The position numbers and the translations under genes are program-made. Below are positions 2,463 to 32,826 of a DNA stretch of 32,826 nt, one piece after another (within the stretch, counting starts at the first letter, position 1; each line of letters opens with the position of its first letter). A model generated the notes under the pieces. It was not told the DNA's origin. It was given only the letters and a program-made list of their open reading frames with translations, and searched no databases. The stretch comes from Candidatus Moranbacteria bacterium GW2011_GWE2_35_2- (GTDB taxonomy: Bacteria > Patescibacteriota > Minisyncoccia > Moranbacterales > UBA9337). Location: the NCBI GenBank assembly GCA_000990585.1, contig LBQD01000001.1:271276-304101 (forward strand), given 5' to 3'.

Positions 2463-2468
2463 ATTTTT

Positions 2469-3218: not shown

Positions 3219-3270
3219 ATTTTTACAAACAATCTACATTAAAAGATTTTACTTGACGAAAGTGATTTCG

Positions 3271-4191
3271 TTATTTTTTGATATCATTTACAAATTCAAC
3301 AAACCCCGCCGTATTTACCCAAAAATTCCGCTTATTATTTTTTAAAAATTTCTCAATTTCTTTTCTCTGTTTTAGCATCTTTTTTGATCTTTTCTGTATT
3401 TCCCCAAGCAATCTATTAGAATATGTTCCATCTAAAAATGATATATAGCAAAAATCATTACGTCCTTCTTTAAGATTCAAAATTTCAATTAACTCGGAAA
3501 CTTGCTTGTCTTGTTCTCCGCCACCAACATTCAAATGCTTCGCCTCGAGTAAAAATATTTTCTTTCCATCCTTTATTATCAAATCCAGCATTTTCCCCTG
3601 TTTCTTTGCTTTAATTTTAATTCCAAAATTATCTTTCAGGCTTGAATTTGAAAAAACTTCTCGAGAAAATCGTGCAACACACTTTTTCTTTCTATGTAAT
3701 TCTTCCCAACTTTTTACTTCAATAAATCCCTTTTCTGTCAAAATTTTAACTAATTTTCTCTCTCCCAACTCTCCTTTTTTTCGGGAAGAATTTGAATCCA
3801 AAATTGCCTGAACCCAGCTTTCCGGAACTTTATCATTTATCTTTCTGCTTTTAATATATAATTTTGTTATTTCTTTAAATGAATTAAAATCCTTTTGAAT
3901 CAGATCTCGCGTTGTGTCGCAAGCATTAACAAAACATCCCAATTCAGAACAATTGGCGTACGTGGAATTAAAAACTTCAAATAACTTCTTAAAATATTTT
4001 TCAATAACTACAATATCTTCTTTATTTTCCTGTAATTTTTTGATAGTTATCAAGATTTCTTTTATCTCTTTTATCGCCTTAATGTGTTCTTTCAATTTTG
4101 GATGATTATCGATTACAAAATAACTCTCATCCAAATGAGGCTCTGGGTTATCCTTCGAAATTTCAAAATAATGCAGATTGTCCTTTGGCAT
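3271..4191 (-). CDS. PD-(D/E)XK restriction endonuclease, probable partner of the adjacent methyltransferase
   Basis: GELGERKLVKILTEKGFIEV...GKMLDLIIKDGKKIFLLEAKHLNVGGGEQDKQV: E...D...ExK core. Likely start at 4191 (MPKDNLHYFEI), overlapping the methyltransferase 3' end; the ORF track extends to 4242. Confidence 0.65.
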   Translation of the reverse strand: MPKDNLHYFEISKDNPEPHLDESYFVIDNHPKLKEHIKAIKEIKEILITIKKLQENKEDIVVIEKYFKKLFEVFNSTYANCSELGCFVNACDTTRDLIQKDFNSFKEITKLYIKSRKINDKVPESWVQAILDSNSSRKKGELGERKLVKILTEKGFIEVKSWEELHRKKKCVARFSREVFSNSSLKDNFGIKIKAKKQGKMLDLIIKDGKKIFLLEAKHLNVGGGEQDKQVSELIEILNLKEGRNDFCYISFLDGTYSNRLLGEIQKRSKKMLKQRKEIEKFLKNNKRNFWVNTAGFVEFVNDIKK

Positions 4192-5329
4192 AATGTAAGT
4201 TATGGAAATATAAATAATTAATAAATTTATAAACAAAATCAAAACCTATTCTTTTTCTATCATTATCTCTGTAATTTGTCAGAAAAAGTGAAAGATAATT
4301 TTCACGCAGCTTATTTATTTCTAAATTAAATAAATCAATAAGTTTTTCTTGTTCAATAATGGTTACTTTTTTATCCAGAATCAAATAAATCATATGCCTG
4401 GAAGATTCCTTACTTACCAGACAATCAACGCCGTAATTTCTGATATTTTCCAGGGCTATCCTCCCGGACTTCGAACCACTATCAATAGCTTTTAATAGAA
4501 TTATATTAGACTTTATTTTCCTATAAACATCTTCTGAAATTGTAAACTCTCTCATATGTTTTACGTGATTATAAGCAGCTCGAATCTTTATCTTTCCTTT
4601 TTTGTTAGCGACATCTTTTTCTGTTAATCTTTTAACTCCGAGAAAATTTTCCTGTTTTTTGATAGTTTTGAAAATTTTTCCTCCGATTGCCCAATCATGA
4701 TTTTTATTTAATTCTATGGCTACACATTTTCCCTCCGGATAAATATGAGTTTTTATGGAAAATTCGTCATCGAATTGATTTTCCTTTTTTTTGTAATAAA
4801 AAGCAATCACATTATAAGTAGTATCAGGAAAAACTTGTTGTTTGAAATAATTCATTTCGACTATCCTGAATTTAGAAAAAAATATTTCCCTGATTTTTTT
4901 TGAATTTCTAGCTGAAAGAAAATTAATTGGAACGATGACTATTCCCTCATTACTGTTCATTATCGCTCTCAATGAGAGATGATAAAGATCTTCCAATCCT
5001 GAATTTTTGAAATATTTTTCTTTTGTTTTTTTATCAGCTTTATTTACATTAAGATATGGAGGATTAGTTATTACAAAGTCATATTTTCCTGCAGAAATTA
5101 AAGTATCTTGAAAGAGAACATTTTTTTCATCAACATATTTTTTATCCACATCAAAACCAATAGCTCTTCTTGCTTTATTATTTTCCGCCCATCTCAATAA
5201 ATCTCCAGCACCAGCAAAAGGATCAGAAACTTTTTTCCCTTTAATAAATTCTTCAAATCCACTCAAAATATAATCCGAATTTGTAGTGAAAAATTGCCCT
5301 AATTGTTTCTTTTTAATTTTTACTGTCAT
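4163..5329 (-). CDS. N6-adenine DNA methyltransferase (type II R-M, TaqI/Eco57I-like)
   Basis: Motif X-like QLGQFFTT, motif I DPFAGAGDLL, motif IV NPPYLN. Confidence 0.88.
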   Translation of the reverse strand: MTVKIKKKQLGQFFTTNSDYILSGFEEFIKGKKVSDPFAGAGDLLRWAENNKARRAIGFDVDKKYVDEKNVLFQDTLISAGKYDFVITNPPYLNVNKADKKTKEKYFKNSGLEDLYHLSLRAIMNSNEGIVIVPINFLSARNSKKIREIFFSKFRIVEMNYFKQQVFPDTTYNVIAFYYKKKENQFDDEFSIKTHIYPEGKCVAIELNKNHDWAIGGKIFKTIKKQENFLGVKRLTEKDVANKKGKIKIRAAYNHVKHMREFTISEDVYRKIKSNIILLKAIDSGSKSGRIALENIRNYGVDCLVSKESSRHMIYLILDKKVTIIEQEKLIDLFNLEINKLRENYLSLFLTNYRDNDRKRIGFDFVYKFINYLYFHNLHYAKGQSALF

Positions 5330-16085: not shown

Positions 16086-17642
16086 TTAATTCCCCCAATT
16101 CGACATCATCACTCCCAAATCCCTCGTATTCACAACTCCGTCGGAATTGACATCGGAAGTTTCATTTCCGATTCCGAGCCAATTGGTGATGGCGGAGATG
16201 AAATTAGTTAGAGTGTATGTTATTGGCGCAGGTTTAATTGAAAATGATATTTCATAATCATCAATATTTACATTATTAGACATATCTGAACATCTGACAT
16301 AGTAGTTATACGAATTTCCATTAGTTAATCCACTGAGTATTGTTGAATGTGATGTTGTTCCTGTTGTTGCAAATGTTCCCGTCATTGTTTCATAAGTTGT
16401 TCCGCTGACACCAGAATACTTACATACAGCTGATTCGTTTGTGATTAATGAAAATACTGTTGATGTTGTTCCCGCTATTAAAGTTCCTGTTGGTAAGCCG
16501 GCTGAACGAGAAGGCGGAATATTGTCACCGACAACAGAGTTCAAAAGAGAAAAATATCTTGGTCCAATTTGCCCTTTAGATCCATCATCAATTATAAAAT
16601 CGTCCACGTAATACCAAGATTGCATACTATCGCCCCAAAGCCATCCGCCACTATTATTACCGCCAAAAAAATACCAGTTCCATAGTTCTGTAATATCCTG
16701 AGTGACAAAATCTACGGGTGTATTTACCAAAACATGCCAAGAATTACCAACTTTATCATATATCCAAATATCCATATAGGTTTTTTGAACACCATTTTCC
16801 ATCACATTTTTAAAACGAAATTCAACTCCCATCCAATCATCAGTAATCACTGTTCTGTCCTCTGCTATTCCATAAAATCCTGTTCTTCCTAATCCATCAG
16901 GATCATTTGGTTCATTTTTTAAAACAAGACCTCCATTAATTGGCTCGTAATTATATTTTTTTATATGAGGAATTATATGATAAGGACTATAAGAATATTC
17001 TTCTTCGGGTGTTTCAAGGCAATGCAATGCATCAAAACAACCCATATTCAATGTCCCAAATTTAAAGGATTCGTAATAAATATATTCTCGATTTTCTTCA
17101 TATGCTCCTAATGGACGATATGTAGCACAACTTACTTCCTCTCTTGTAACTGAATCGATACAATGCGTCGGCCACATATTCTTAGGTAATTTTGTCATAA
17201 AAAATAAAGATATATCTTCATAACCAGATTCTTTAGTTCCATTTCCAAAATACATCCCAAAACGACTAGGACCTTTCACTTCACCATTTTCTCCCCCGCA
17301 ACCCATATCAATAATTAGGGACTTACCAGAATCACCTATTCTATTACCTTCACCAAAATCATCTATCCAATTAGTTGCAGGGTCTTCGGGACACCAATCG
17401 CTATAATAATTCCAAAGACTGTTAGTCCCATCCAAATATTTTGGTATTTCTCCAACTATATTTCCAATACCTCCATTTGCCCATAAACCCTTCCAATCCT
17501 CTAACTGATCAAAGCTTTCCGCAATATCAAAATTACTCTCCAGCGTTTCCTGCCAAACTTGCGCTTGAGCGTTATTGGCCACGAACATACCGAAAATAAA
17601 AATAAGTAAAGCTGCGTTAATTTTAAAAATTTCTTTTTGCAT
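16086..17642 (-). CDS. Secreted jelly-roll-like protein + Ig/FN3-like domain + dockerin-like C-terminal tag (array gene 1)
   Basis: Signal peptide; body VWQETLESNFDIAESFDQLEDW...; TTGTTSHSTILSGLTNGNSYNYYVRCSDMSNNVN; ends DVNSDGVVNTRDLGVMMSNWGN. Likely start 17642 (MQKEIFK); ORF track 17663. Confidence 0.8.
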   Translation of the reverse strand: MQKEIFKINAALLIFIFGMFVANNAQAQVWQETLESNFDIAESFDQLEDWKGLWANGGIGNIVGEIPKYLDGTNSLWNYYSDWCPEDPATNWIDDFGEGNRIGDSGKSLIIDMGCGGENGEVKGPSRFGMYFGNGTKESGYEDISLFFMTKLPKNMWPTHCIDSVTREEVSCATYRPLGAYEENREYIYYESFKFGTLNMGCFDALHCLETPEEEYSYSPYHIIPHIKKYNYEPINGGLVLKNEPNDPDGLGRTGFYGIAEDRTVITDDWMGVEFRFKNVMENGVQKTYMDIWIYDKVGNSWHVLVNTPVDFVTQDITELWNWYFFGGNNSGGWLWGDSMQSWYYVDDFIIDDGSKGQIGPRYFSLLNSVVGDNIPPSRSAGLPTGTLIAGTTSTVFSLITNESAVCKYSGVSGTTYETMTGTFATTGTTSHSTILSGLTNGNSYNYYVRCSDMSNNVNIDDYEISFSIKPAPITYTLTNFISAITNWLGIGNETSDVNSDGVVNTRDLGVMMSNWGN

Positions 17643-17650
17643 TTGTTTTT

Positions 17651-19516
17651 TTAATTTGACCACCCACTCATCATCACTCCCAAATCCCTCGTATTTACAA
17701 TCCCATCAGAATTGACATCGGAAGTTTCATTTCCGATTCCCAGCCAGTTAGTGATAATGGAGATGAAGTTGGTGAGGGTGTAGGTTGTTAGAACGACGCA
17801 AGCCTCACATACTCCTCCGCAATCGATTCCGGTTTCGTCTTGGTTTTGGATGTTGTCAGAGCAGGTTTCTTCGGCTGCGCTAACATATTCAAAAGCTCCG
17901 ATGTCATAGGATATTCCTTGGGGTCTTATTATATTATCATAATCATATGGAAATAATTCTAATAGATATCCCGAATCCCTAGCCGGGCTTAATGCTTGAA
18001 GTTTGTAGTCCCCATTAGCTGGATCAACCAGTAAGGGGTTGCTATTGATAGCATTAGAATCTTGAGTCGGGCCATCACCATTGTTGAAATATATGTTATT
18101 TGCAATCGTCACATTAGACCAGTCCGAGTACTCTGTACTGTATGATCCAAAAAAGACATAGGGAGCTGTCCCGTTGGACCACATGATGTTATTTTTTATA
18201 ACCATGTGCTGCCCATTGTCACTCATTAGGGATAGGACTCCTCCACCACCAATGGAGTAAAAGGTGTTATTGTAAATGTAGGCTGTACCGTTTACTAAAT
18301 TAAACGCTGAGAAAGCCCCAATGTTGGCTACCACATTGCTGTAGTAATAAAGCGTTGAGTCAGGAAGGACATTTGACATTGTCGGGCCTCTCATGTCACC
18401 TGAACCATCTGACGTAATTAAATTTGAATGTATACGAACATTATCGTACTGGTTTTTACCAGGATCATCAGCATGGACCTGTATGCAGTGGCCTGCGGCG
18501 TCATCATGAAAATAATTATATGCTACTTCTATGTTGTCAGCTCCACATTGAATATAGATTAAGTGGTTATTATTGAACGGATATCCTTTAACCCCGCAAT
18601 TATCAATTTCATTGCCAAGAATTTTACTTCCATCGTTTGTAATTCTAAGGTGCCCTGTCATTGTAGTGCTGGTTCCTTTTGCGGCATTAGTAACTCGACA
18701 GCCAATGATTCTTAAGTGATGTGCACCTACCTCTTCGTTTGTGTAAAAGCCTCCGGTGTCAACTCCCCCAGGAGCAGTTTCTCCGGCACCATCCATAATA
18801 ATCTGAGAAACAACTTGATAATGTGCCTCATTTCCATTTGCCTTATCAAGAAATAGGAAATGTCTTCCTTTTCCCCATTGAAACACCACATTCTCACCAG
18901 GATAGGCAATCCAGGCTATCGAAGCGTTTTCTTCTCCAGCTATGCCTGACATTACCTGATAGGCTGCTCCCATAAAAGTTTTACCGTATTGTCCAGTATA
19001 GGTTCCTTGTCGTAAATATAATATGTCACCAGGCTTGGCTTGCGCATAAAAACTCATAGCATGAGTCCATGGATCATCGAATGTGCCATCCCCACCTATA
19101 ACATCGTCATTGGTCGCAAAATAAACATGTCCACTATTGACTGTAAATGGGATGTTCTCAATAGAATTACCTTCAGGTGTATGCACTACTATATTGCCAG
19201 TGATAGCATTCGGTCCCAACTGGAATGTTATTTTTTTATCCGACCATACTAGGTAATCGCTTGCCTGGCCACCACCAATAGTTACATAAGATGTGCCCTG
19301 AGTTTCCCCGAAACTATGCCCCCAAATTGTCACAAAAGCTCCTTTATCATTTTGCCCAGTATTTTTGGGGCCATTAATTAAATCAGAATAAAAAATATTC
19401 GGCACCTCCATAGCTAATACTTTGTGATCTAACAAGATAGTTCCGCTAAAAATTATCGCCAATAAAAAATATATTATTCTCATAAATATAAATTTAAAAA
19501 AATTCATTCTCCCCAC
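17651..19516 (-). CDS. Secreted IPT/TIG + right-handed parallel beta-helix protein with C-terminal Cys/dockerin-like tag (array gene 2)
   Basis: Signal peptide; GAFVTIWGHSFGETQGTSYVTIGG IPT-like; PbH1-like repeats (IEVAYNYFHDDAAGHCIQV, MVIKNNIMWSNG); tag at 17651-17863. True start may be an internal Met. Confidence 0.82.
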   Translation of the reverse strand: MGRMNFFKFIFMRIIYFLLAIIFSGTILLDHKVLAMEVPNIFYSDLINGPKNTGQNDKGAFVTIWGHSFGETQGTSYVTIGGGQASDYLVWSDKKITFQLGPNAITGNIVVHTPEGNSIENIPFTVNSGHVYFATNDDVIGGDGTFDDPWTHAMSFYAQAKPGDILYLRQGTYTGQYGKTFMGAAYQVMSGIAGEENASIAWIAYPGENVVFQWGKGRHFLFLDKANGNEAHYQVVSQIIMDGAGETAPGGVDTGGFYTNEEVGAHHLRIIGCRVTNAAKGTSTTMTGHLRITNDGSKILGNEIDNCGVKGYPFNNNHLIYIQCGADNIEVAYNYFHDDAAGHCIQVHADDPGKNQYDNVRIHSNLITSDGSGDMRGPTMSNVLPDSTLYYYSNVVANIGAFSAFNLVNGTAYIYNNTFYSIGGGGVLSLMSDNGQHMVIKNNIMWSNGTAPYVFFGSYSTEYSDWSNVTIANNIYFNNGDGPTQDSNAINSNPLLVDPANGDYKLQALSPARDSGYLLELFPYDYDNIIRPQGISYDIGAFEYVSAAEETCSDNIQNQDETGIDCGGVCEACVVLTTYTLTNFISIITNWLGIGNETSDVNSDGIVNTRDLGVMMSGWSN

Positions 19517-21417
19517 CCACTCATCACCACTCCCAAATCCCTCGTATTCACAATTCCGTCAGAATTGACATCAGAAGTTTCATTTCCGATTCCCAGCCAG
19601 TTAGTGATAATGGAGATGAAGTTAGTGAGGGTGTAGGTTGTTGGAACAACGCAAGCGTCGCAAACTCCTCCGCAATCAATTCCGGTTTCGTCTTGGTTTT
19701 GGATGTTGTCAGAGCAAGATTCAGAAGTTTGGACATATTCAAAAGCTCCGATGTCATAGGATATTCCTTGGGGACGGGATACTCCGAGAAAGTCATTGGG
19801 AACCGAAGCGAGAGTTGTGCCTGCATTGATAGCGGGGGAAGTTGATTGGAGAGTGAAATCATTAGTGAAAGGAGAGGTGAAAAGAGGGTTTTGATTAATA
19901 TAGTTAGAGGCATATCCAGGAATAGTCGCTCCATACCATATATCATTATCAGAACTTACAGCGCCTATTGCTGTCGAATCAAATCCGCTCGTTAATGAAT
20001 AAAAGATATTATTTTTCATTTCAACATTATTGTTAATTCCGCTTGCATCGATAAATAGAATCAGGCTGTCAGTTCCTTCTACATTATTGTCATAAATCGT
20101 ATTATTATAAAAACGAACATTACTAACAACATCGTTATGTATACCAAAATGAACCGACGGTCTTGCACTTAGATTACCATTACCGCAATTATACAAAACA
20201 TTATTCCATACATAAGCATTTTTAATGCTACTGGCAAAGGCCAGTCCGGCATGAGGAAGATTATGAACAATATTATCATGTATATACACCTCGTCTACCT
20301 CTCCAGCATTTGAATCTGTTGGATGAATATATATTCCGCTTGGACCACCAACATTATCCCCCGTGCCAATATCAACAAAATTATATAATTCATTCCAACC
20401 AATTTCCACTCCTTTATTATGCAGATCAGGAAAATTATAAACGGTACCAATATACATACCGTGATAATATTTATCTCCATACAAATCATGAATACTATTT
20501 CCCAAAATCTTAAAATTCTCGTTTTCAACTGGGCTGGCTCCGAAAATAACAGTGCCCGTCCATCCCATTCCAACTGTTGTAATATCATTACCAATAACCC
20601 GCCAATTGCTCTTATTAGCTTCTCCTGAAGCCATACCTATCGCAGTTATTTTTGCATTTATAAAAAATTTAGAAATAGTAACATATTCACAAGCATAAGA
20701 ATGTTCCCGTATTCCATCATAAGTTCCATCCCCAATAATTACCTTTTCAGCTGGATATGCAACATATGCAACTGGCAATCCAGCCATACCGCAATCATTA
20801 TTATAAAACCTCAAGTAGCTATTATATATATGAAGATCGGTATATGTTCCTCCTTTAACATAAACAATATCACCAGGATCAAAAACACTACTACTGGCCA
20901 TGGCTTTATAAATATGTCTCCATGGTCCATTACCACTGCCAATATTCGCATCATACAAACCATTATTACTATCGTCTCCATTTAAAGAAACGAAATAAAT
21001 TTTACCTGATCTAATCGTAAAACCTATTGGATCAGAAACATTTCCACCCACATTTACTACTATATTCACATTTCCATCTGACATATTACTGTTGAGCCAA
21101 AAAGTAATGCGTTCCATACCATTTGAAATGCCATTTTCGCGTTCACTTACACCCCACTCTGCATAATCACTATCATTGACAAGATCAACTCCTCCGACAG
21201 TTACATAAGATGAACCTCTTTCTGCGCCAAAGTTTCTTCCCCAAATTGAAACTGCCGCTCCTTTAATAAGCGATCCATTCCAGCCTACCTTAGGACCACT
21301 ATCTAAATCAGAAAATAATAAAATGGGAGCAGAAGCAGCCTTTATTTTTAAAGGGAAGTTAAATCCGATAATAATTGAAAGAATAATAAACAATGAAATT
21401 TGAAATTTTTTTTTCAT
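19504..21417 (-). CDS. Secreted IPT/TIG + parallel beta-helix protein with C-terminal tag (array gene 3)
   Basis: Signal peptide; GAAVSIWGRNFGAERGSSYVTVGG; beta-helix repeats; tag at 19504-19716. Confidence 0.83.
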   Translation of the reverse strand: MKKKFQISLFIILSIIIGFNFPLKIKAASAPILLFSDLDSGPKVGWNGSLIKGAAVSIWGRNFGAERGSSYVTVGGVDLVNDSDYAEWGVSERENGISNGMERITFWLNSNMSDGNVNIVVNVGGNVSDPIGFTIRSGKIYFVSLNGDDSNNGLYDANIGSGNGPWRHIYKAMASSSVFDPGDIVYVKGGTYTDLHIYNSYLRFYNNDCGMAGLPVAYVAYPAEKVIIGDGTYDGIREHSYACEYVTISKFFINAKITAIGMASGEANKSNWRVIGNDITTVGMGWTGTVIFGASPVENENFKILGNSIHDLYGDKYYHGMYIGTVYNFPDLHNKGVEIGWNELYNFVDIGTGDNVGGPSGIYIHPTDSNAGEVDEVYIHDNIVHNLPHAGLAFASSIKNAYVWNNVLYNCGNGNLSARPSVHFGIHNDVVSNVRFYNNTIYDNNVEGTDSLILFIDASGINNNVEMKNNIFYSLTSGFDSTAIGAVSSDNDIWYGATIPGYASNYINQNPLFTSPFTNDFTLQSTSPAINAGTTLASVPNDFLGVSRPQGISYDIGAFEYVQTSESCSDNIQNQDETGIDCGGVCDACVVPTTYTLTNFISIITNWLGIGNETSDVNSDGIVNTRDLGVVMSGWGE

Positions 21418-21435
21418 ACTTAGATATTTAGTTTC

Positions 21436-23202
21436 TTAATTCCCCCAATTCGACATCACCACCCCCAAATCCCTCGTATTCACAACTCCATCGGAATTAA
21501 CATCGGAAGTTTCGTTTCCGATTCCGAGCCAGTTGGTGATGGCGGAGATGAAATTGCTTAATCCATAAGTTATCGGAACGACGCAAGCCTCACATACTCC
21601 TCCACAATCGATTCCGGTTTCATCTTGGTTTTGGATATTGTCGGAGCAAGATTCATTTTCTGAAGTATATTCAAACGCTCCGATATCAGGGGCATTTCCC
21701 GAATATAAGAAACCGACATCCGTTCCCGCATCAATTGCCGGAGAATCAGATTCGAGAGTTCCATCAGGAAAAAGCTTCGGGTCATGAATCAAATCGCTTC
21801 CATCCAGCACAATGTCATTCAAGCCAATATCATAAAATAAATTGTGTGATTCTGTCGGCACTATCGAATTATTTATCACTTTAAATCCGTACCCCGTCGC
21901 CTGGGAACAAATATTATTTTTCCATATTGACTCAGGAACCCCGATATTATCTCCATCGGAAAGAGAAAAGCAATTAACCACATCCGTCACTGTATTGTTA
22001 TAGAATATATTCCCCGCACCTTCATTACTCCCTATTTTCAAACCGTCCGCGGAAGTTCCGTTGCAAAAATTATTCGCCACCAAGTTTCCACTGCCCTTAA
22101 AAATTGAGATGCACCTACCACCGCACAACGCATTAGCATTGGATATCCTGTTTCGCAAAACATTATTATTCGTCGATATGTACGCGTCATTGGAAATTGT
22201 CCAATCCAAAATAATTCCATCTCCATCGCAAGTGGCCGTATCCACGCCATTGATAACATTGTCAACAATGTCAACTCCATCAACCCAATGCAATTGCAAA
22301 CAATTTACCCGTATCTGATCCGGGCTACCGCAATCTGTTATTATATTTCTCGATACACTACTTGTTCCGCTTATTTCAGTTATGCCTGCTGCCGTTCCGA
22401 CAGCGGCCGCATTGGAAGTATGCACTTCGTTATCGTCGAATTTTATATTATACGGACGCAATCCTTGCGCCGGAACCCAACTTTGTGCTTCGGTCGACAT
22501 GAAAAATCTGAAAGCCTTGTCTACGTTTGAAAATTTATTATGATGCACATTTACATCATGCACGCGCGCCATCGTTGAAGATGTGAAGATTCCCATCCTT
22601 ATTCCTTCGACTTTCGAATTAAGAAAAAACTCATTATCGTGAATATCCACATTTCCTACCGCACCTCCTGCACCATCTTCAATATAGAAATTCACGGCAT
22701 AACTTGCTATTTCCGCATCCGATTTGGTGAATTTTGAATTTTTTATTTCTATCGGACCGACAGCATCAACGAAATATATCGCGGATTTGCCATCTTCCCA
22801 TCCGGAAAACGTCAATCCATCAATTACAATGTTCGATTTTCCGATATTCGGAAAATTCAATGCATTCCCTAAAGCGACGTCAAACAGCGGAGTTTCTCCT
22901 AATGCGGACTTTATCGTAAAACCATTGCAAGAATATGGTGTTACCAATGTTTCAGTGAATTCCCCAGTATCATCACAAAGAAAAACGGTGTCTCCAGAAG
23001 AAATTTTTCCATCCCCTGTCCCGCAATTGGAATTGTCATTAAAAAATTCATACGGTTTCGCAGTTTCACAGGAAATCCCCGAACCATCCCCGCCCTGACC
23101 AAATCCTACATAAAAATCCTCGGCCAAAACATTATCCCTTTTTAAAATAACACCGCAAAAGACCAACAACGTTAGAAAAAATATTTTTATTGTTTTTTTC
23201 AT
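21436..23202 (-). CDS. Secreted parallel beta-helix protein without IPT domain, with C-terminal tag (array gene 4)
   Basis: Signal peptide; GNVDIHDNEFFLNS, NIVIDGLTFSGWED, NVLRNRISNANAL, NIFYNNTVTDVVN; tag at 21436-21648. Confidence 0.82.
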   Translation of the reverse strand: MKKTIKIFFLTLLVFCGVILKRDNVLAEDFYVGFGQGGDGSGISCETAKPYEFFNDNSNCGTGDGKISSGDTVFLCDDTGEFTETLVTPYSCNGFTIKSALGETPLFDVALGNALNFPNIGKSNIVIDGLTFSGWEDGKSAIYFVDAVGPIEIKNSKFTKSDAEIASYAVNFYIEDGAGGAVGNVDIHDNEFFLNSKVEGIRMGIFTSSTMARVHDVNVHHNKFSNVDKAFRFFMSTEAQSWVPAQGLRPYNIKFDDNEVHTSNAAAVGTAAGITEISGTSSVSRNIITDCGSPDQIRVNCLQLHWVDGVDIVDNVINGVDTATCDGDGIILDWTISNDAYISTNNNVLRNRISNANALCGGRCISIFKGSGNLVANNFCNGTSADGLKIGSNEGAGNIFYNNTVTDVVNCFSLSDGDNIGVPESIWKNNICSQATGYGFKVINNSIVPTESHNLFYDIGLNDIVLDGSDLIHDPKLFPDGTLESDSPAIDAGTDVGFLYSGNAPDIGAFEYTSENESCSDNIQNQDETGIDCGGVCEACVVPITYGLSNFISAITNWLGIGNETSDVNSDGVVNTRDLGVVMSNWGN

Positions 23203-23221
23203 ATAAATTGAATCTTCCTAT

Positions 23222-24544
23222 TCATTCCCAATTACTCATCATCACTCCCAAATCCCTCGTATTCACAATCCCGTCAGAATTGACATCGGAAGTTTCGTTT
23301 CCGATTCCGAGCCAGTTAGTGATAATGGAGATGAAGTTGCTTAATCCATAAGTTATCGGAACGACGCAAGCCTCACATACTCCTCCGCAATCAATTCCGG
23401 TTTCGTCTTGGTTTTGGATGTTGTCGGTGCAAGATTCGGGGATTGATTGACTGTTTAATAAAGAAAAATATGTCGGACCGACACGTTGATTGTCAATAAC
23501 TAAATCATCAAAGTACCATCTAGTCTCACCCGGACAAACTGCTCCGCCCGCACACTGATAGTTTCCTCCAAATACGAACTTATTATAATTATAGGAAAAA
23601 TTAGTTTGCATTCTTACAGGACCAGAATCATAATATCCGATCTGTTCCCCATCCTCGTTATACACCCAGAACTCCGATCTCCCATCATAATTTTCAAGCG
23701 TTCCGAGATTAAGGTGATATTCCACGCCTATCCATTTATGCGCTAAATATTCGGCATCAAACCTTGTTTGGTCATACATAGCCACATTCCTCTCATAAGC
23801 ATATCTCCAGCAACTATTAGCACTGTCCCAAGAGGTGATATTGGACTGATCTAAAAAGTATAATTTCTGCGGTCTTGATATCCCGCCTCCACCGGCATTA
23901 TATATTGAAAAATTAGTTCCATATTCATGGTCTATATTTGTTTGACAAGTTGGCTCATTATAGTTATAGATATCCTTAAATCCTGTCACCGCATCAAACA
24001 TTTTCAAAACTGGTGGATATAGGAAAGAATCGACTGTGCCATCTTGCAGCGCCCAAAATCCATCGTGATATTTCATCATAAAAAATACATAAACATCATG
24101 ATATCCGGATTGAGGCGTACCGTCGCCTATATATATTCCTAATCTCTCTGACCCATATCCCTTAACATCATCTATATTTATTCCGCAATACAATGGAGGA
24201 TAATTTATACAAGCAGATTTTCCGCTTCTCCAATTATATTCTTCTCCGTGATCACCAATCCAATTATCCAAATGTTGATTTGGACCATTATAATATTGTG
24301 AATACATATCCCAAATAGATTCAGAACCATCAAGTTTTTTAGGCATATCATCGGGATAACTAAGACTAGTAACCACATCCGTATGATTACCATACCAATC
24401 CGCTAGTTCATCGAAAGTCTCAGCAATATCAAAATTATTCTCCAGCGTTTCCTGCCAAACTTGCGCTTGAGCATTATTTGAAAAGCTAAGTCCGATAAAA
24501 ATTACAAGGATAACGATTGGTAGTATTTTAAAATTTATTTTCAT
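23222..24544 (-). CDS. Secreted jelly-roll-like protein with C-terminal tag (array gene 5)
   Basis: Signal peptide; VWQETLENNFDIAETFDELADWYG, GSERLGIYIGDGTPQSGYHDVYVFFMMKY, VGPTYFSLLNS; tag at 23222-23431. Confidence 0.78.
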   Translation of the reverse strand: MKINFKILPIVILVIFIGLSFSNNAQAQVWQETLENNFDIAETFDELADWYGNHTDVVTSLSYPDDMPKKLDGSESIWDMYSQYYNGPNQHLDNWIGDHGEEYNWRSGKSACINYPPLYCGINIDDVKGYGSERLGIYIGDGTPQSGYHDVYVFFMMKYHDGFWALQDGTVDSFLYPPVLKMFDAVTGFKDIYNYNEPTCQTNIDHEYGTNFSIYNAGGGGISRPQKLYFLDQSNITSWDSANSCWRYAYERNVAMYDQTRFDAEYLAHKWIGVEYHLNLGTLENYDGRSEFWVYNEDGEQIGYYDSGPVRMQTNFSYNYNKFVFGGNYQCAGGAVCPGETRWYFDDLVIDNQRVGPTYFSLLNSQSIPESCTDNIQNQDETGIDCGGVCEACVVPITYGLSNFISIITNWLGIGNETSDVNSDGIVNTRDLGVMMSNWE

Positions 24545-24576
24545 TTTTTATATTTTTTATATTTTTTATATTTTTA
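24543..24576. repeat. 9-bp tandem repeat (attttttat, ~3.8 copies) at the start codon of array gene 5
   Basis: attttttat x3 plus partial copy; first unit overlaps the ATG of the 23222-24544 ORF. Confidence 0.9.
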
Positions 24577-24579
24577 CCC

Positions 24580-26010
24580 TTAATTCCCCCAATTCGACAT
24601 AATCACCCCCAAATCCCTCGTATTCACAATTCTGTCAGAATTGACATCAGATTCAGTATTTCCGATTTGAAGCCAATTGGTGATGGCGGAGATGAAGTTG
24701 GTGAGGGTGTAGATCGTCGGAATAACGCAAGCCTCGCACACTCCTCCACAATCGATTCCAGTTTCGTCTTGGTTTTGGATATTGTCAGAGCAGGTTTCGG
24801 AGATTGATTGACTGTTTAATAAAGAAAAATATGTCGGACCGATTCTTGACCCATTGATTACAAGATCATCAACATAAAATTCCGATTTCATTCCTGGCCC
24901 CCACTTATACGTATCACTTACATTACCACCCAAATAGAAAGCATTATATTTATCATCGGCGTCATAGTGATATGTTGATTGCAAAAATAAATCATTTTTC
25001 GCTCCTATGTGATGTTCGGTACCATCAGTATCATAATACCACATATCTTTTATTCCATTATTCATTCCCCGATCATTTAATTTATATCGAACTTCAAGGC
25101 CAACCCACTGATCAACAGGAACTTCGACGCCTGGCCATCCAGCCACCTGATCACCCACATCTTCACTGCTCGCAGGATGGCATTGGGGATTGCAATTATC
25201 CAAATAGCTGCTTATATCTCCCCATATTAGCTGAGGATATCCGCTACGAGGAATAAAATGGGAAACATTCGGCATCCATCCATATGAGGAATTCGCCCCT
25301 ACATATTCAGGATCATGTCCTGACCCCGATCCCTCCCAATGAATCCACGGCTCTATGAATCCATGAGCGACTGTCTGATGTTTCATTAATACATATTCAT
25401 ATCCATCTCCATCTGCGTCATTCCAATAGCCACAATGACTGCCACCATTACAATCAGCAGCTACCCCACCACAATTAGAGTTATCATCAACCCCGATACA
25501 ACGAGGCCACATTTCTTTAGGAGTATAGATCATATAAAATACATACATATCGCGATAACCGTGAGTTTTGTCGCCAATAGCCCCGTCAGCACTTCCGAAA
25601 TATGTACCGAAGCGAGAAGTGCCATACTCCCCGGTAAAATCTATAGCATAAGATTTTCCAACACCCTTTTCGGTCGGATCCCAAATTTTCCCTCCGTGAT
25701 TTCGATGATCCTGAATCCAATCATTCACCGGATCAACTCCTATCACCCAATAATCATAAAAATTAAAAGGCGTATTGGATCCATCAAGACGTTTCGGATA
25801 TGTACTATGGGAAATTCCATCATGCGCTTGCCCCAGAAGCCCATCTTTTCCGCTCCAATCCTGTATATCGTCAAAAGTTTCCATCAAATCAAAACCATAT
25901 TCGACGGCCGCAGAGCTTCGGCCGAATATCTCCAACGCCTGACATGGAGTTGATAAAGAAAAAATAACAACTGCCGATATAAATACGCTAATTATGTTTT
26001 TTGCTATCAT
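24580..26010 (-). CDS. Secreted jelly-roll-like protein with C-terminal tag (array gene 6)
   Basis: Signal peptide; AVEYGFDLMETFDDIQDWSG, TSRFGTYFGSADGAIGDKTHGYRDMYVFYMIY, IGPTYFSLLNS; tag at 24580-24792. Confidence 0.78.
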   Translation of the reverse strand: MIAKNIISVFISAVVIFSLSTPCQALEIFGRSSAAVEYGFDLMETFDDIQDWSGKDGLLGQAHDGISHSTYPKRLDGSNTPFNFYDYWVIGVDPVNDWIQDHRNHGGKIWDPTEKGVGKSYAIDFTGEYGTSRFGTYFGSADGAIGDKTHGYRDMYVFYMIYTPKEMWPRCIGVDDNSNCGGVAADCNGGSHCGYWNDADGDGYEYVLMKHQTVAHGFIEPWIHWEGSGSGHDPEYVGANSSYGWMPNVSHFIPRSGYPQLIWGDISSYLDNCNPQCHPASSEDVGDQVAGWPGVEVPVDQWVGLEVRYKLNDRGMNNGIKDMWYYDTDGTEHHIGAKNDLFLQSTYHYDADDKYNAFYLGGNVSDTYKWGPGMKSEFYVDDLVINGSRIGPTYFSLLNSQSISETCSDNIQNQDETGIDCGGVCEACVIPTIYTLTNFISAITNWLQIGNTESDVNSDRIVNTRDLGVIMSNWGN

Positions 26011-26133
26011 AAAATATTAATAAATTATTGATACGACTTTAAAAAAAATTTGGAATTACAAAACACTTACTGAAAATTTCCATACATACTCTTATAATTT
26101 TCAACAAATCAGCATTCGATATTTGTAAAAAAA

Positions 26134-28113
26134 TCACTCTCCCCACCCGCTCATCACCACCCCCAAATCCCTCGTATTCACAATCCCATCAGAATTGACA
26201 TCAGATTCAGTATTTCCGATTTGGAGCCAGTTGGTGATGGCACTGATGAAATTGGTGAGATTGTAAGTCGCCGGAACGACGCAAGCGTCGCACACTCCTC
26301 CGCAATCGATTCCGGTTTCGTCTTGGTTTTGGATATTGTCGGAGCAGGTTTCAATTGACTTTTCGGCACTTGTGTATTCGAAGGCTCCGATGTCGTAGGA
26401 TACTCCTTGGGGTCTGACTGTGCCAACAATATCATTAGTTAATATGGCGCTTAAATCCACTCCTGCATCTATTGCTGCTGAATTATACTGGAGACTATAA
26501 TCTTCCGAACCAGTAAATTTTGGATCGGTTGCGATATCCCCTGAATCCCAAGTAGGATAATCCGAAGCTCCGCCATACCAAACATTATTTCTCCCAAAAG
26601 CATCAATTTCGGACTGCCCATCATCAAAAAAACTTGTTGAAGAATAAAATATATTATTGCTTATATCCGCCGATTCAGTATCATCAATCATATGAATAAC
26701 ATTAGCATTTTCATATAAGGTATTATTATAAATCTTATACCTTCCCGATCCTCCATAATTAACCCCTCCCACTGTTATGCCATCTCCTGAATTGTTAGAT
26801 ACCACATTATTAAAGAAATACAAATCCTGAACAAATGAATAGTCATATGACCCCCCATTTCCATCTCCGCCACCAATAACAGCACCGCCTCGTCCTTGAT
26901 CATGAATATAGTTATTGTAAATATATATTTCATCCGCCCAATCAGTTACATAATGCCCGTATACTTGAAGTCTGCCCTGCGGGTTATGGTGCATTTCATT
27001 ATATCCAATATAAGTATAACGATGCCATCCAAACCCACCTAAATAAATCGGGTATCCACCCCCTGAAGCATAGTAAATCCCATCCCTATCATTAACCCCC
27101 AAATCATGAAAATTATTTCCCAAAAACCATATGTATTCTGAGCCATTTGCATTGCCAGATATCTGAACTGCTGTTTTGGCGACTCTCTCTATTATGCCAA
27201 CCGTACTAAAATCTATCCCAACAAAACGCAAATAGTCGTTTCTCAAAGGCGCAGTAATTGTCACACTACTATTAATATTATTCCCCTCGGATCGAAACAT
27301 CATTTTGCCAAATGTCCAGTGTGAAAAAGTACCCGGGGTTGATCCTCTAAAAATCATTACATATTCATTATCAATATCCCCTATCTGGGGTATTTCTCCA
27401 GGATAAGCAACGATAGCAATAGAATTATTGACTGTTCCATTATGAAAAATATTGGCACCAGCCCCGGTCCAAAAATCCATTATATAATTTTCATCATATC
27501 CCCATTGATCAACTGCTGTATGAATTCCCGCTCTAATATAGCAAACATCTCCAGCGGTAAGTGTTTTCTTTGCCATTCCCAGGGTAGCCCACGGTCCACT
27601 TATATTCCCTTGATAACTACTCATCTTTCCATTATATGAATCGGCAGATCCAACATCATCAACAAAATAAATATTACCATTATCTCTACAATAAAAATCA
27701 ACTCCGCTTGACACTCCATCTGCTGTTGTTACAGAAATTTTTCCAGCCCCAATTGTCATATTTGAGTTTAAATGAAATGTTATTCTCTCTAATCCCTGAG
27801 ATGAGAGGTAAACATCTGCTGGGTCATTTTCACCAGCAATATTTACGACCCCCCATTCCACAACATCAGCAGAATCAGAGGCAATTTCTTGTCCGCAAAC
27901 ATCTATATGTGCCACTCCGCCAGAGCCCAAGTTTCTTCCCCAAATAGAAACTGCCGCTCCTTTGGTTGCAGATCCCTCCCAGCCGGAAACTGGAGCGTCA
28001 GTGAGATCGGAAAAAAGAACAACCGGAGATTGGGACGCTTGGACATTGATACTTGAAAAAATAATTCCACAAAGAATCAAGAAAAAGAAAAGTATTTTTG
28101 TTTTGTTTTGCAT
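26134..28113 (-). CDS. Secreted IPT/TIG + parallel beta-helix protein with C-terminal tag (array gene 7)
   Basis: Signal peptide; SPVVLFSDLTDAPVSGWEGSATKGAAVSIWGRNLG; beta-helix repeats; tag at 26134-26346. Likely start 28113 (MQNKTKI); ORF track 28140. Confidence 0.82.
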   Translation of the reverse strand: MQNKTKILFFFLILCGIIFSSINVQASQSPVVLFSDLTDAPVSGWEGSATKGAAVSIWGRNLGSGGVAHIDVCGQEIASDSADVVEWGVVNIAGENDPADVYLSSQGLERITFHLNSNMTIGAGKISVTTADGVSSGVDFYCRDNGNIYFVDDVGSADSYNGKMSSYQGNISGPWATLGMAKKTLTAGDVCYIRAGIHTAVDQWGYDENYIMDFWTGAGANIFHNGTVNNSIAIVAYPGEIPQIGDIDNEYVMIFRGSTPGTFSHWTFGKMMFRSEGNNINSSVTITAPLRNDYLRFVGIDFSTVGIIERVAKTAVQISGNANGSEYIWFLGNNFHDLGVNDRDGIYYASGGGYPIYLGGFGWHRYTYIGYNEMHHNPQGRLQVYGHYVTDWADEIYIYNNYIHDQGRGGAVIGGGDGNGGSYDYSFVQDLYFFNNVVSNNSGDGITVGGVNYGGSGRYKIYNNTLYENANVIHMIDDTESADISNNIFYSSTSFFDDGQSEIDAFGRNNVWYGGASDYPTWDSGDIATDPKFTGSEDYSLQYNSAAIDAGVDLSAILTNDIVGTVRPQGVSYDIGAFEYTSAEKSIETCSDNIQNQDETGIDCGGVCDACVVPATYNLTNFISAITNWLQIGNTESDVNSDGIVNTRDLGVVMSGWGE

Positions 28114-28123
28114 TTTTTTCAAT

Positions 28124-30064
28124 TTAATTTGACCACCCACTCATCATCACTCCCAAATCCCTCGTATTCACAATCCCGTCAGAATTGACATCAGATTCAG
28201 TATTTCCGATTTGGAGCCAGTTGGTGATGGCGGAGATAAAGTTGCTTAATCCATAAGTTATCGGAACAACGCAAGCCTCACACACCCCTCCGCAATCGAT
28301 TCCGGTTTCGTCTTGGTTTTGGATGTTGTCAGTGCAGGTTTCTTCGGCTGCGCTAACATATTCAAAAGCTCCGATGTCATAGGATATTCCTTGGGGACGG
28401 GAGACTCCGAGAAAGTCGTTGGGAACCGAAGCGAGGGTTGTGCCTGTATTGATAGCAGGGGAAGTTGATTGGAGAGAAAGATTGCTGCTAACGGGAGTAA
28501 TATATAGAGGATTTGTATTTGAAAGACTGGTTAAGGCGTCATCCCAGGCAGGAATAGAATTCGAAAGTCCATAATAAATATTATTCGAACCGGCAGCAAT
28601 TTCATTAAAATCAGTCGGTCCATAAAAATAATCTCCGGATCCGGAAGTAGCAGATATAATGTTATTTTTAAAAACAAAATAATCTAAATTTCCGACACTT
28701 ATTTCTCTTTGAGTATAATTCGTATTTCCGGAAAAAGAATTATTGTACATAAAAACATTTCCACCATGTCCGCCCCATGAAGTCGTATCTCCCACCCTTA
28801 TTCCGCCTCCATTGGCATAAAAAACATTATTGTAAACATAGGCATCGGTTATAAAAGCATAGTTAGTTTGTGGAACATCGTTAGAATCACCACCTCCAAA
28901 CACAGCGCTCACCGCTATTACTTCTGTTGGCTGGGTTGAAGTATGATGGATAATATTATCATGATATTTAAGCATCACTATTCTATCTGCCGCATGATGA
29001 CCATAAAACTGCGATTGCCCGTTATTATAAGCAAACTCATTCCAAGCAACCTCAGTTACACCTCCATGTATCCCAAATCCGGAAAAATACAATGGTCCCA
29101 CTCGATAACCACTTCCGTCAGATTCTTGCCAATCGAGAGGCTTTCCTGTGTGATGAATATAGTTTCCTAGCATTTTAAAATTCTCACTGCCAGCATTGGC
29201 AGGTATTTGAAATGCAATTCCTAATCCTATTGAAGCCTGCGTAGTAGTTGCATCATTTCCTACCAATCGTACATTATTAATTGTTCCTCCTGCAGCTCCA
29301 CCATTATCTATCGCCCACACAGCATTTGACGCTATCCATTTAATCTTACTCCAAGTGAAATAATCCATATGATCTGTTGGAGTATAAGAAGCTTGCCTAA
29401 GAATAGAATTGTGTGTCAACGTCCCATCCCCCAAAACAACTTCCTCGGAAGGATACGACGTTATTGTAATACTATTGTTTAACGTTCCGGCGACATGATT
29501 TCCATTTGACATATTCATTAAACATTCATGACCCGAAGGAGCAGATGGATCAGTTTCCAAATATGTCCCACTGCGCAAATAAAAAATATCTCCGGGCTGC
29601 ATCACGGGAAGCATTTTGTATAATGTTTTAAAAGGAGATGCCACGCTAAGCCCGTCATTTGAATCATTTCCTGTCGTACTGACAAAATAAATATTTCCAG
29701 TATTTCTTGTGTAAAAAGGAATGGTTTCTGATGTTCCATCGGCTGTGGTGATGGAGATTTCAGTGTTGGTTGTTGGGTTAGTTGTCGCTCCCCATTCGGC
29801 ATAATCACTGTCATTGGTAAGATTTACTCCTCCTATGGTTACATAGGAAGAACCTCTTTCTGTTCCAAGATTTCTTCCCCAAATGGATACGGCTGCTCCT
29901 TTGGTTGGCGAACCTTCCCAGCCGGAAACAGGAGCGTCAGTGAGATCGGAGAAAAGAACAACCGGAGGCTGGGCGGCATTTGCCGTAACAAAAATTCCAA
30001 TTCCAAAAAATACTGCTACCAGAAACAAGATTTCTTTTGTTTTGTTTTGCATTTGTTTTTTCAA
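28124..30064 (-). CDS. Secreted IPT/TIG + parallel beta-helix protein with C-terminal tag (array gene 8)
   Basis: Signal peptide; VVLFSDLTDAPVSGWEGSPTKGAAVSIWGRNLGTERGSSYVTIGG; beta-helix repeats; tag at 28124-28336. Confidence 0.82.
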   Translation of the reverse strand: MKKQMQNKTKEILFLVAVFFGIGIFVTANAAQPPVVLFSDLTDAPVSGWEGSPTKGAAVSIWGRNLGTERGSSYVTIGGVNLTNDSDYAEWGATTNPTTNTEISITTADGTSETIPFYTRNTGNIYFVSTTGNDSNDGLSVASPFKTLYKMLPVMQPGDIFYLRSGTYLETDPSAPSGHECLMNMSNGNHVAGTLNNSITITSYPSEEVVLGDGTLTHNSILRQASYTPTDHMDYFTWSKIKWIASNAVWAIDNGGAAGGTINNVRLVGNDATTTQASIGLGIAFQIPANAGSENFKMLGNYIHHTGKPLDWQESDGSGYRVGPLYFSGFGIHGGVTEVAWNEFAYNNGQSQFYGHHAADRIVMLKYHDNIIHHTSTQPTEVIAVSAVFGGGDSNDVPQTNYAFITDAYVYNNVFYANGGGIRVGDTTSWGGHGGNVFMYNNSFSGNTNYTQREISVGNLDYFVFKNNIISATSGSGDYFYGPTDFNEIAAGSNNIYYGLSNSIPAWDDALTSLSNTNPLYITPVSSNLSLQSTSPAINTGTTLASVPNDFLGVSRPQGISYDIGAFEYVSAAEETCTDNIQNQDETGIDCGGVCEACVVPITYGLSNFISAITNWLQIGNTESDVNSDGIVNTRDLGVMMSGWSN

Positions 30065-30065
30065 T

Positions 30066-32033
30066 TTAATTTGACCAATTACTCATCACCACCCCCAAAT
30101 CCCTCGTATTCACAATTCCGTCAGAATTGACATCAGATTCAGTATTTCCGATTTGGAGCCAGTTGGTGATGGCGGAGATGAAATTGGTGAGTGTATAAGT
30201 TGTTGGAATTATACAAGCCTCACACACTCCTCCGCAATCGATTCCGGTTTCGTCTTGGTTTTGGATGTTGTCGGAGCAGGTTTCTTCGGCTGCGCTAACA
30301 TATTCAAAAGCTCCGATGTCATAGGATATTCCTTGGGGACGGGAGACTCCGAGAAAGTCATTGGGAATCGAAGCGAGGGTTGTGCCTGCATTGATAGCGG
30401 GGGAAGTTGATTGGAGAGTGAAATCATTAGTGAAAGGAGAGGTGAAAAGAGGGTTTTGATTAACTGCAATCGAATCCCAAGATGGCAAAGTTAAGGAGGT
30501 ATTGGAAACGCTAAACCATAAATTATTATTTATCGATAAAGGAGTTTGACATGAAGACTCAAGTATAAAAGGATATCCTTTCGTATCTACTACAATATTA
30601 TTTTTCCATTCGTACGTACCGCCAAAACTATATTCTGACCCAACCTGATGATGTACTTTTAATCCGGAATTTTCAGTATTTTCCGCCTCGCCGTAGCCAT
30701 ATATAGTATTATTGTAATATCTAACCGTTGCAGTGTTATCCGTACCATAAAGACTTATTGCCTGATTATACATCTGAACGGGGGAATACAATCCTGTATT
30801 AATAAGAATATTATCATAAACATCCACGCTGGCATCAAACCCCGTACCTTCATCACAATAAAGCGTACCAATGTTTATTCCCGGACCAACCTGATTTTCG
30901 ATCCAATTATTATGGATACTGAATGTTCCGGAAAAACTTCCGCATCCATTTTCATCATAAAAATGAATTCCAAATCTGGCGATGTTATCCTCAAGTCTAT
31001 TCCAGCCAATTTCAGGGGCTGGCAAAGTCACATCACTTCTAAGACTGAAATATGTAGCGTGTTCCTTATTGCTTGTTGTCGGTCCACCATAATCATGAAT
31101 ATAATTTCCAAAAACCTTTAAATTTGAAATATTCTCATATCCCAAAGTTGTGTAATTATTTGCCGCTCCAATAATAGCTCCAGCCTGCCCAAACGCATCA
31201 GTTCCTGGAACTTGCTGAAGATTATTAGCCACAACCCTGCCATTTGAAGATCCAGAAATACATGCTCCTCCACTGGCAAAAACACGGAGTTTTGAAAAAA
31301 CCCAAAAATCATTTCTTGTATAAAAATTTTGCACAGCCCCATAAAGCGCGGTACTTATGACCACACTTGAATTTGGATATGCAACCATCGCAACATTATT
31401 ATTCGCAATTCCATCAAGTTGCAAGCTTGACCCATATTGCAATCTATCGTTAAGCGTCATATCAGTCACGTAAATTATATCTCCCACTCCCGCCGTATTT
31501 CCACGAACAGCATATGTCATTGTCGCCCACGGAGATACCCATGATCCGACTCCAGAATCAACACCGCCTGCTTTTACAAACCTAATTATTCCATCTGATC
31601 TTGCATAAAAATCCAATTCCGTCGAATTTACTCCTTCCACTTCCACATAAATCTTCCCTGCTCCGTCAGCAACAGCGGAAGGAATGGAGAAAGCGATTTC
31701 TTGCATTTTATGCGAGGTATAGAGATCGGAAGGTCCTCCGGGAAGTTGTCCGTCGGCATTTTTCCAATAGTAGACATGGGCGGCTTCGTGGATGGAATTG
31801 TTTGAATCTTTGAAATATACTTTTGATGTTCCTTGAGAAGATCCGAGATTATTTCCCCAGATGGTTACGATTGCTCCTTCTCCCAAACCATCTCCCAGTC
31901 CTGATTTGGGACCATTGATAAGGTCGGAGAAATTGAGAATCGGTAAACTTGCGGCTTTTGAATTATTTGATACGTTGATTCCAAAAAAAATCAATACTAA
32001 TAAAAAGATAATCTTTAATCTTATTTCTTGCAT
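30066..32033 (-). CDS. Secreted IPT/TIG + parallel beta-helix protein with C-terminal tag (array gene 9)
   Basis: Signal peptide; GAIVTIWGNNLGSSQGTSKVYFKDSN; beta-helix repeats; tag at 30066-30278. Confidence 0.83.
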   Translation of the reverse strand: MQEIRLKIIFLLVLIFFGINVSNNSKAASLPILNFSDLINGPKSGLGDGLGEGAIVTIWGNNLGSSQGTSKVYFKDSNNSIHEAAHVYYWKNADGQLPGGPSDLYTSHKMQEIAFSIPSAVADGAGKIYVEVEGVNSTELDFYARSDGIIRFVKAGGVDSGVGSWVSPWATMTYAVRGNTAGVGDIIYVTDMTLNDRLQYGSSLQLDGIANNNVAMVAYPNSSVVISTALYGAVQNFYTRNDFWVFSKLRVFASGGACISGSSNGRVVANNLQQVPGTDAFGQAGAIIGAANNYTTLGYENISNLKVFGNYIHDYGGPTTSNKEHATYFSLRSDVTLPAPEIGWNRLEDNIARFGIHFYDENGCGSFSGTFSIHNNWIENQVGPGINIGTLYCDEGTGFDASVDVYDNILINTGLYSPVQMYNQAISLYGTDNTATVRYYNNTIYGYGEAENTENSGLKVHHQVGSEYSFGGTYEWKNNIVVDTKGYPFILESSCQTPLSINNNLWFSVSNTSLTLPSWDSIAVNQNPLFTSPFTNDFTLQSTSPAINAGTTLASIPNDFLGVSRPQGISYDIGAFEYVSAAEETCSDNIQNQDETGIDCGGVCEACIIPTTYTLTNFISAITNWLQIGNTESDVNSDGIVNTRDLGVVMSNWSN

Positions 32034-32042: not shown

Positions 32043-32826
32043 TTATCTCACTCTCACAACTACATATTTTGTATCCTTATTACCTACCTTATCATAGGCA
32101 GTGATGCGCATTGTATGTACTCCGGAAGGAGCATTCATAGGGATAATCATAGAAGCCGATTTCGTTTCTTTACTCTTGATAGCACCACCTATGAAAGAAT
32201 ATTTATAATGGTCAATTTTGTTATTATCCTTAGCTTTCCACCAAAGTTTTTCCCCTCTTGATTTTGTCAGAAAAGCAGGCAAATCGTATATGTCCGGATC
32301 TTCGGTATCAACCTTAACATAATATTTCGAAGATTCTTCTACTTCATTATCATTAACATCGTAAAATTTGAACTTAACCGAATAAGTAGCATCTTTTTTA
32401 GCTTTTACAGAAATTTTCCATTCACCTTTTTTAATATCCACATCTTTATATTCATCCCCATTTACATAGGCAACCACTTTTCCACCATTAAGTCCATCTA
32501 CTTCTCCCTTAAAGGAAAACTTTCTATCCCTGGCGTACATTTTCTTTGAAGATGAAATTTTTGTTCTTTTATCATCGGACTTTGATTTAAATTTTGGCTT
32601 TTCGACATCAATATCACTTTGTACAACCTCCGCCTCATCAACATCAACATCAACAGCGTCATCAGTATCATCATCCACAACAGGCGCACTGGCAACAGAA
32701 AAACCAATAGTAAAGTCCGTCGCACTAGCATTTTCCGAAGCATCTTGGCAACGAACATAATAATTATACGAATTTCCATCCGTTAATCCGGTAATAGTCT
32801 GAGAGTGGGAAGTTCCTCCAGTAGTA
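32043..32826 (-). CDS. Ig/FN3-like surface protein, 5' end outside the window
   Basis: Frame stays open past the track start (32678) to the window edge: TTGGTSHSQTITGLTDGNSYNYYVRCQDASENASATDFTIGFSVASAPVVDDDTDD...; C-terminus bacterial Ig-like (GVHTMRITAYDKVGNKDTKYVVVRVR). Confidence 0.75.
   Translation of the reverse strand, partial: TTGGTSHSQTITGLTDGNSYNYYVRCQDASENASATDFTIGFSVASAPVVDDDTDDAVDVDVDEAEVVQSDIDVEKPKFKSKSDDKRTKISSSKKMYARDRKFSFKGEVDGLNGGKVVAYVNGDEYKDVDIKKGEWKISVKAKKDATYSVKFKFYDVNDNEVEESSKYYVKVDTEDPDIYDLPAFLTKSRGEKLWWKAKDNNKIDHYKYSFIGGAIKSKETKSASMIIPMNAPSGVHTMRITAYDKVGNKDTKYVVVRVR

Follow-up and report, generated by a model that had tools for sequence, protein, structure and literature searches.

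A nine-gene array of tagged proteins

The right end of contig LBQD01000001.1 (hereafter C1) of Candidatus Moranbacteria bacterium GW2011_GWE2_35_2- (assembly GCA_000990585.1; 923 kb in 6 contigs) carries an array of nine genes for predicted exported proteins that share one C-terminal tag. Our window, the whole stretch of 32,826 nucleotides that was analysed, covers positions 271,276 to 304,101 of this contig; within it, the nine open reading frames (ORFs) occupy the minus strand from 16086 to 32033, all co-directional, with intergenic gaps of -17 to +35 bp and a single exception of 123 bp (Table 1). As the first-pass annotation had described, all nine end in the same segment of ~43 residues (Y-x-L-(S/T)-NFIS-(A/I)-ITNWL-x-IGN-x-x-SDVNSD-x-x-VNTRDLGV-x-MS-x-W), which, judged by its sequence, is a plug derived from a dockerin, shortened but with one calcium loop left intact. 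In eight of them, all but protein 1, a four-cysteine motif (CxDNIQNQDETGIDCGGVCxAC, written in these ORFs C(S/T)DNIQNQDETGIDCGGVC(E/D)AC) stands a few residues ahead of the tag, and every ORF begins with a hydrophobic, signal-peptide-type N-terminus. The array is followed on C1 by proS, and a scan for promoters and terminators gave no signal above that of shuffled sequences. Since the window stops at the contig end, the upstream partners of the array lie outside it.

The bodies in front of the tag are diverse. Six are right-handed beta-helix proteins, five of which (proteins 2, 3, 7, 8 and 9) pass the choice-of-anchor Q model NF041518 with 31.7-50.7 bits (cut-off 25 bits), protein 4 remaining below it with 21.0 bits. 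A profile of these bodies aligns over ~160 residues with 5olq (4e-7), which we take to be a PL9 rhamnogalacturonan lyase, and tagged proteins of relatives pass the Pfam Pect-lyase_RHGA_epim and Pel9A-like beta-helix models. A common enzymatic activity is not supported, because not a single Lys, Asp, His or Arg is invariant in the helix region of the six bodies. Bodies 1, 5 and 6 form one family for which no relatives were detectable outside it; their earlier reading as jelly-roll-like found support from none of the tools used, as they match no known family, and an AlphaFold model of protein 6, built on three sequences, reached a predicted local distance difference test (pLDDT) score of only 31 and was discarded.

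Whereas the bodies share a mean of 31% protein identity, the tags share 80-95% (mean 87%), far too much for a chance origin of their likeness, which we consider excluded on this comparison. The claim that the tag DNA is almost invariant is too strong, as it is 74-93% identical among the nine genes. At fourfold-degenerate sites coding for the same amino acid, divergence is 0.28 in the tags versus 0.64 in the bodies, which suggests a homogenisation of the tag DNA across the array beyond what selection on the protein would explain. Its distances correlate weakly with gene order (permutation P 0.04) and are unrelated to body type (r = -0.01); protein 6, for instance, combines a body like those of proteins 1 and 5 with the tag variant found in the adjacent proteins 7-9. 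The genome holds a further, frameshifted tagged gene at 34 kb on contig C3 (L029:2410-4313; L and G numbers are our handles for loci or contigs and for genomes). Two 3' tag fragments also occur in frame-broken DNA behind unrelated genes (C3:17270-17320 and C3:24158-24256, L028), one directly behind a gene for a LamG-like protein and the other behind a nucleotidyltransferase-like gene; tags seem, from these sequences, to be gained and lost often. The four-cysteine motif likewise recurs in an unrelated protein just behind a membrane segment (L027:786-1706, and seemingly its beginning in L140:948-1772), adjoined by a rodA/ftsW-like gene, and looks like a portable module.

Table 1. Coordinates of the array, its tags and motifs, the adjacent cohesin gene and the ATPase genes of relatives (window positions unless a locus handle is given; export is predicted from the N-termini)
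Feature	Coordinates	Strand	Remarks
Tagged exported protein 1 (525 aa)	16086..17663	-	body family with proteins 5 and 6; Fn3-like segment replaces Cys motif; tag
Tagged exported protein 2 (621 aa)	17651..19516	-	IPT/TIG-like + beta-helix, choice-of-anchor Q
Tagged exported protein 3 (637 aa)	19504..21417	-	IPT/TIG-like + beta-helix, choice-of-anchor Q
Tagged exported protein 4 (588 aa)	21436..23202	-	beta-helix type, without IPT
Tagged exported protein 5 (440 aa)	23222..24544	-	body family with proteins 1 and 6
Tagged exported protein 6 (476 aa)	24580..26010	-	body family with proteins 1 and 5
Tagged exported protein 7 (668 aa)	26134..28140	-	beta-helix, choice-of-anchor Q
Tagged exported protein 8 (646 aa)	28124..30064	-	IPT/TIG-like + beta-helix, choice-of-anchor Q
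Tagged exported protein 9 (655 aa)	30066..32033	-	IPT/TIG-like + beta-helix, choice-of-anchor Q
Truncated-dockerin tag, protein 1	16086..16217	-	with stop
Truncated-dockerin tag, protein 2	17651..17782	-	
Truncated-dockerin tag, protein 3	19504..19635	-	
Truncated-dockerin tag, protein 4	21436..21567	-	
Truncated-dockerin tag, protein 5	23222..23350	-	
Truncated-dockerin tag, protein 6	24580..24711	-	loop residue 6 is Arg instead of Gly
Truncated-dockerin tag, protein 7	26134..26265	-	
Truncated-dockerin tag, protein 8	28124..28255	-	
Truncated-dockerin tag, protein 9	30066..30197	-	
Four-Cys motif, protein 2	17798..17863	-	
Four-Cys motif, other seven proteins	19651-19716, 21583-21648, 23366-23431, 24727-24792, 26281-26346, 28271-28336, 30213-30278	-	
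C-terminal part of secreted cohesin protein (cohesin 2)	32043..32825	-	cohesin domain on contig C3 (L030:6975-7688)
AAA_14/DUF4143 ATPase genes of relatives	L073:1563-2771, L075:9130-10350, L077:631-1797, L143:7810-9105; by eye L074:2070-6786		

Relation of the tag to dockerins

The tag contains the calcium loop of type I dockerins (PF00404; D-x-N-x-D-G-x-x-N-x-x-D) in the form DVNSDGxVNTRD, and the calcium ligand positions 1, 3, 5, 9 and 12 are occupied by D, N, D, N and D in all nine copies. Compared with a canonical dockerin, it keeps the helix - calcium loop - helix order and has lost the first loop, an arrangement found in three families of the order: in full-length tags of families f1, f5 and f11 and of named relatives, the first dockerin repeat is reduced to its helix. 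When a profile of the family's tags was compared with the PDB, cellulosomal dockerins ranked first (6kg9 at 1e-6, 2y3n, 4fl4), and calmodulin-type EF-hands were far weaker. In a structural model of the last 75 residues, helices 35-45 and 63-71 flank the loop at pLDDT ~70-77, and the six best Foldseek matches of this model in the PDB are dockerins from cohesin-dockerin complexes, none with an individually significant E-value. Dockerin loop positions 10-11 carry specificity; they are Thr-Arg in the nine tags, whereas the genome's other dockerins have Thr-Thr and Ile-Ile/Ile-Leu there.

Cohesin genes beside the array and across the order

Cohesins, the partners of dockerins in such complexes, are encoded next to the array. 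The partial ORF at the very end of C1 shows 39-51% identity to the C-terminal region of relatives' cohesin proteins (best E about 1e-64). Between its end and the right end of contig C3 there is an in-frame overlap of exactly 20 bp, a 20-mer that is confined to these two contig ends and occurs nowhere else in the genome. The joined protein, cohesin 2, has 492 residues comprising a signal peptide, a cohesin domain, an Fn3-like domain and an Ig-like tail, an overall layout shared with its relatives. Just upstream on C3 lies cohesin 1 (C3:151687-152928), which possesses an N-terminal membrane anchor, a cohesin and a two-loop dockerin of its own. In the genome search, cohesin 1 scored 25.4 bits, above the PF00963 cut-off of 24.1 bits, and cohesin 2 fell just below it with 22.9 bits; the cohesin profile finds scaffoldin cohesins as its top matches in the PDB (4uyp, 6kg8, 2bm3 and others). 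A gene for a CBS-pair protein, the only CBS protein found in the genome, stands beside cohesin 1 together with genes read as rseP and frr. A second cohesin/dockerin locus, with a different dockerin sequence, occurs at C3:70-74 kb. Cohesin-like genes, which the first-pass annotation had proposed to look for, are therefore present and, after the contig join, directly upstream of the array, whereas the sortase genes that it had also considered were not found anywhere in the genome.

To survey the order, we used 133 genomes, metagenome-assembled and broken at repeated domains, and a tag profile built on the tags of the array family itself. A contig scan with the tags of this genome gave no match; the broader profile succeeded, and its named matches fall in Candidatus Moraniibacteriota / Parcubacteria. 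The tag was detected in 15 genomes, PF00963 in 31 (26 with a cohesin over the Pfam cut-off) and both in 12, cohesins being present in 12/15 tagged versus 19/118 untagged genomes (Fisher P 1e-6). Tag and cohesin genes are neighbours in eight genomes, among them G049, G050, G053, G067, G104, G105 and G132, as well as on contigs L089 and L093. By a rough binomial estimate, at least 7 of the 12 genomes would be in this state by chance with a probability of 5e-5 or less. The intact tagged proteins that we examined have exported-type N-termini, and tags seen without such an N-terminus, which would have spoken against a surface role, were limited to fragments and an ORF that seems to be truncated (L073:2984-3850). 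Among viral contigs no relative of the tag was found, the cohesin alignment being too variable for scanning.

A single cohesin was detected in each of G004, G006, G049, G050 and G053, always of the membrane-anchored type, which by elimination makes this protein the likely receptor of the tag. Most of these anchors follow the pattern KTWxG...LAFxAG, and, by our count, a CBS gene lies immediately upstream in about 12 of 16 cohesins with this N-terminal anchor; in G007, a tagged array of four genes adjoins the CBS gene. In one genome, the CBS-pair protein (L139:3796-4443) ends in a membrane segment (SWWGRFFVFINKSQIKTWKGALFLAAIAG) resembling the cohesins' N-terminal anchor, hinting at a contact of the CBS protein with the cytoplasmic end of the receptor. 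Another membrane-anchored cohesin (L141:7145-8701) has a fused C-terminal part in which several membrane segments occur and which appears pilin/VirB2-like by eye. Contigs L089 and L142 encode proteins with both a cohesin and a tag that look like adaptors; the cohesin part of the L089 protein aligns poorly. L089 itself (WFZS01000037.1), a contig with the label Bacteroidales, was probably mis-binned: its adaptor - CBS - cohesin cluster is complete and of the Moranbacteria type. AAA_14/DUF4143 ATPase genes were repeatedly observed beside tagged genes or near a cohesin in relatives (G004, G006, G067), with an IS30-like transposase (by eye) adjoining one of them on L075; this neighbourhood is possibly a shared insertion hot spot.

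A docking model, its alternatives and its context

We propose that the array encodes a display system in which one type of socket would accept many plugs, to which we assign a probability of roughly three in four. The nine tagged proteins would be exported from the cell, calcium would fold the tag outside, and the tag would then dock non-covalently into the single-cohesin socket of the membrane-anchored protein encoded at C3:151687-152928. One socket type could thereby hold any of about ten beta-helix or other modules at the cell surface, where they may serve in carbohydrate binding or adhesion, and the display would be interchangeable. With one cohesin per receptor and about ten proteins sharing the plug type, competition among these proteins for the socket would be expected. 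The homology of the tag, the cohesin genes and their joining to the array, the export-type N-termini, and the co-occurrence and adjacency of tag and cohesin across the order are the observations behind this model, and the earlier idea of a common docking tag carried by different exported modules gains support from them.

Several findings weigh against it. Eight of the proteins score 14.1-19.8 bits with Dockerin_1 (PF00404), below the gathering cut-off of 22.9 bits, and for protein 6 the domain was not listed in the Pfam hmmscan; of the two tandem calcium-loop/helix repeats of dockerins, the tag retains the loop of the second but lacks that of the first. Because these two dockerin-defining features are lacking, we speak of a dockerin-derived or truncated-dockerin tag and not of a canonical dockerin. 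The join between C3 and C1 consists of 20 bp only and falls within a type of domain that occurs repeatedly. With no fewer than three cohesin-like genes and two further dockerins in the genome, the pairing of tag and cohesin is tentative, and three tagged genomes (G001, G005 and G066) gave no cohesin, G001 having partial tag matches only and G005 being split into about 120 contigs.

The same genes might instead form a small cellulosome-like complex, with tagged beta-helix proteins acting as pectin-type polysaccharide lyases on adaptor and anchoring cohesins and degrading polysaccharides of the host or the environment. The lyase-like matches of the bodies here and in relatives agree with this, as do the two-loop dockerin of cohesin 1 and the adaptor-like proteins of relatives, but each cohesin protein in the loci read has one cohesin, with neither a multi-cohesin scaffoldin nor a cellulose-binding module or CBM match seen, and the lack of invariant charged residues in the beta-helix argues against a common catalytic site; we consider such a complex unlikely. 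It is less probable still that the tag serves in sorting or covalent attachment as a signal for a dedicated enzyme, comparable to the signals of sortases, of exosortases or of type IX secretion. Its common C-terminal position, its high conservation and the choice-of-anchor Q domains shortly ahead of it would fit such a signal, yet its C-terminus has no hydrophobic segment or basic tail, its conserved core is a calcium loop in which no ligand is missing, no sorting-signal family in Pfam or NCBIfam matches it, and, as no sortase was found in the genome, we reject the sortase version of this idea. Slightly more improbable still is a mere calcium-stabilised end cap, homogenised by gene conversion and lacking any partner, for although homogenisation reaches silent sites and tag distances follow gene order (weakly) instead of body type, such a cap leaves unexplained why, in several families of the order, cohesins occur together with tags and next to them. 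As a rather doubtful extension of the docking model, local recombination might homogenise tag DNA across unrelated genes and thus recruit new exported modules to one membrane-anchored cohesin, while the CBS protein would sense nucleotides and control the receptor, so that the module shown to the host changes.

Elsewhere in the window, a restriction-modification-like block (1683-5329) comprises an Eco57I-type methylase (4163-5329), a weak DpnII-like nuclease (3271-4242), a DUF6602 protein (2469-3218) and one gene without assigned identity, and at 194-910 a Phd/YefM antitoxin domain is fused to a weak HSDR_N-like nuclease domain. The genome also encodes giant repetitive exported proteins of 822-1738 residues without the tag (L028:1502-13110), the 822-residue one having no Pfam match.

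Non-cellulosomal cohesin-dockerin pairs are said to have been reviewed by Peer et al. in 2009. Like the proposed planctosome (PMC6461901) and the expressed cohesin and dockerin domains of Shapirobacterales (PMC9123182), the latter also members of the Candidate Phyla Radiation (CPR), the present case places cohesin/dockerin-like domains outside the classical cellulosome; unlike them, it involves one array with a shortened one-loop dockerin beside one-cohesin receptors and a CBS gene. A single way of binding has been presumed for other dockerins that are shortened or asymmetric. They are known from group 2 of Ruminococcus flavefaciens, for whose truncated dockerins a single binding mode was suggested (PMC2930009), and from single-mode dockerins involved in direct cell-surface recruitment and also in a two-protein toxin (PMC5429695). 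R. flavefaciens, however, belongs to another phylum; here, the first calcium loop is missing throughout the tag family, and the carriers are not annotated as glycoside hydrolases. Southlakia epibionticum, also a Patescibacterium, has a dockerin-type protein as well, the essential envelope protein SEML1_0315 proposed to target host glycans, but this is a single protein and cohesin goes unmentioned in its description (PMC10633639). The array proteins resemble those of NF041518 in having the choice-of-anchor Q domain shortly ahead of a C-terminal anchor, which in this case is the dockerin-like tag. In the literature searched we found no prior description of dockerins in Moranbacteria/Parcubacteria, an absence that is no proof of novelty. 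That cohesins and dockerins exist outside cellulosomes, also among CPR bacteria, is thus known; what sets the present case apart is a tandem array sharing a shortened dockerin, a receptor with one cohesin and a CBS gene conserved next to it.

Since the tags score below the Pfam cut-off, routine dockerin annotation would miss them. A one-loop dockerin of ~43 residues with natural cognate cohesins would provide a compact tool for protein attachment. For the poorly understood ways in which CPR bacteria construct their outer surface and attach to hosts or substrates, the array offers a defined and testable plug-and-socket pair in genomes near 1 Mb.

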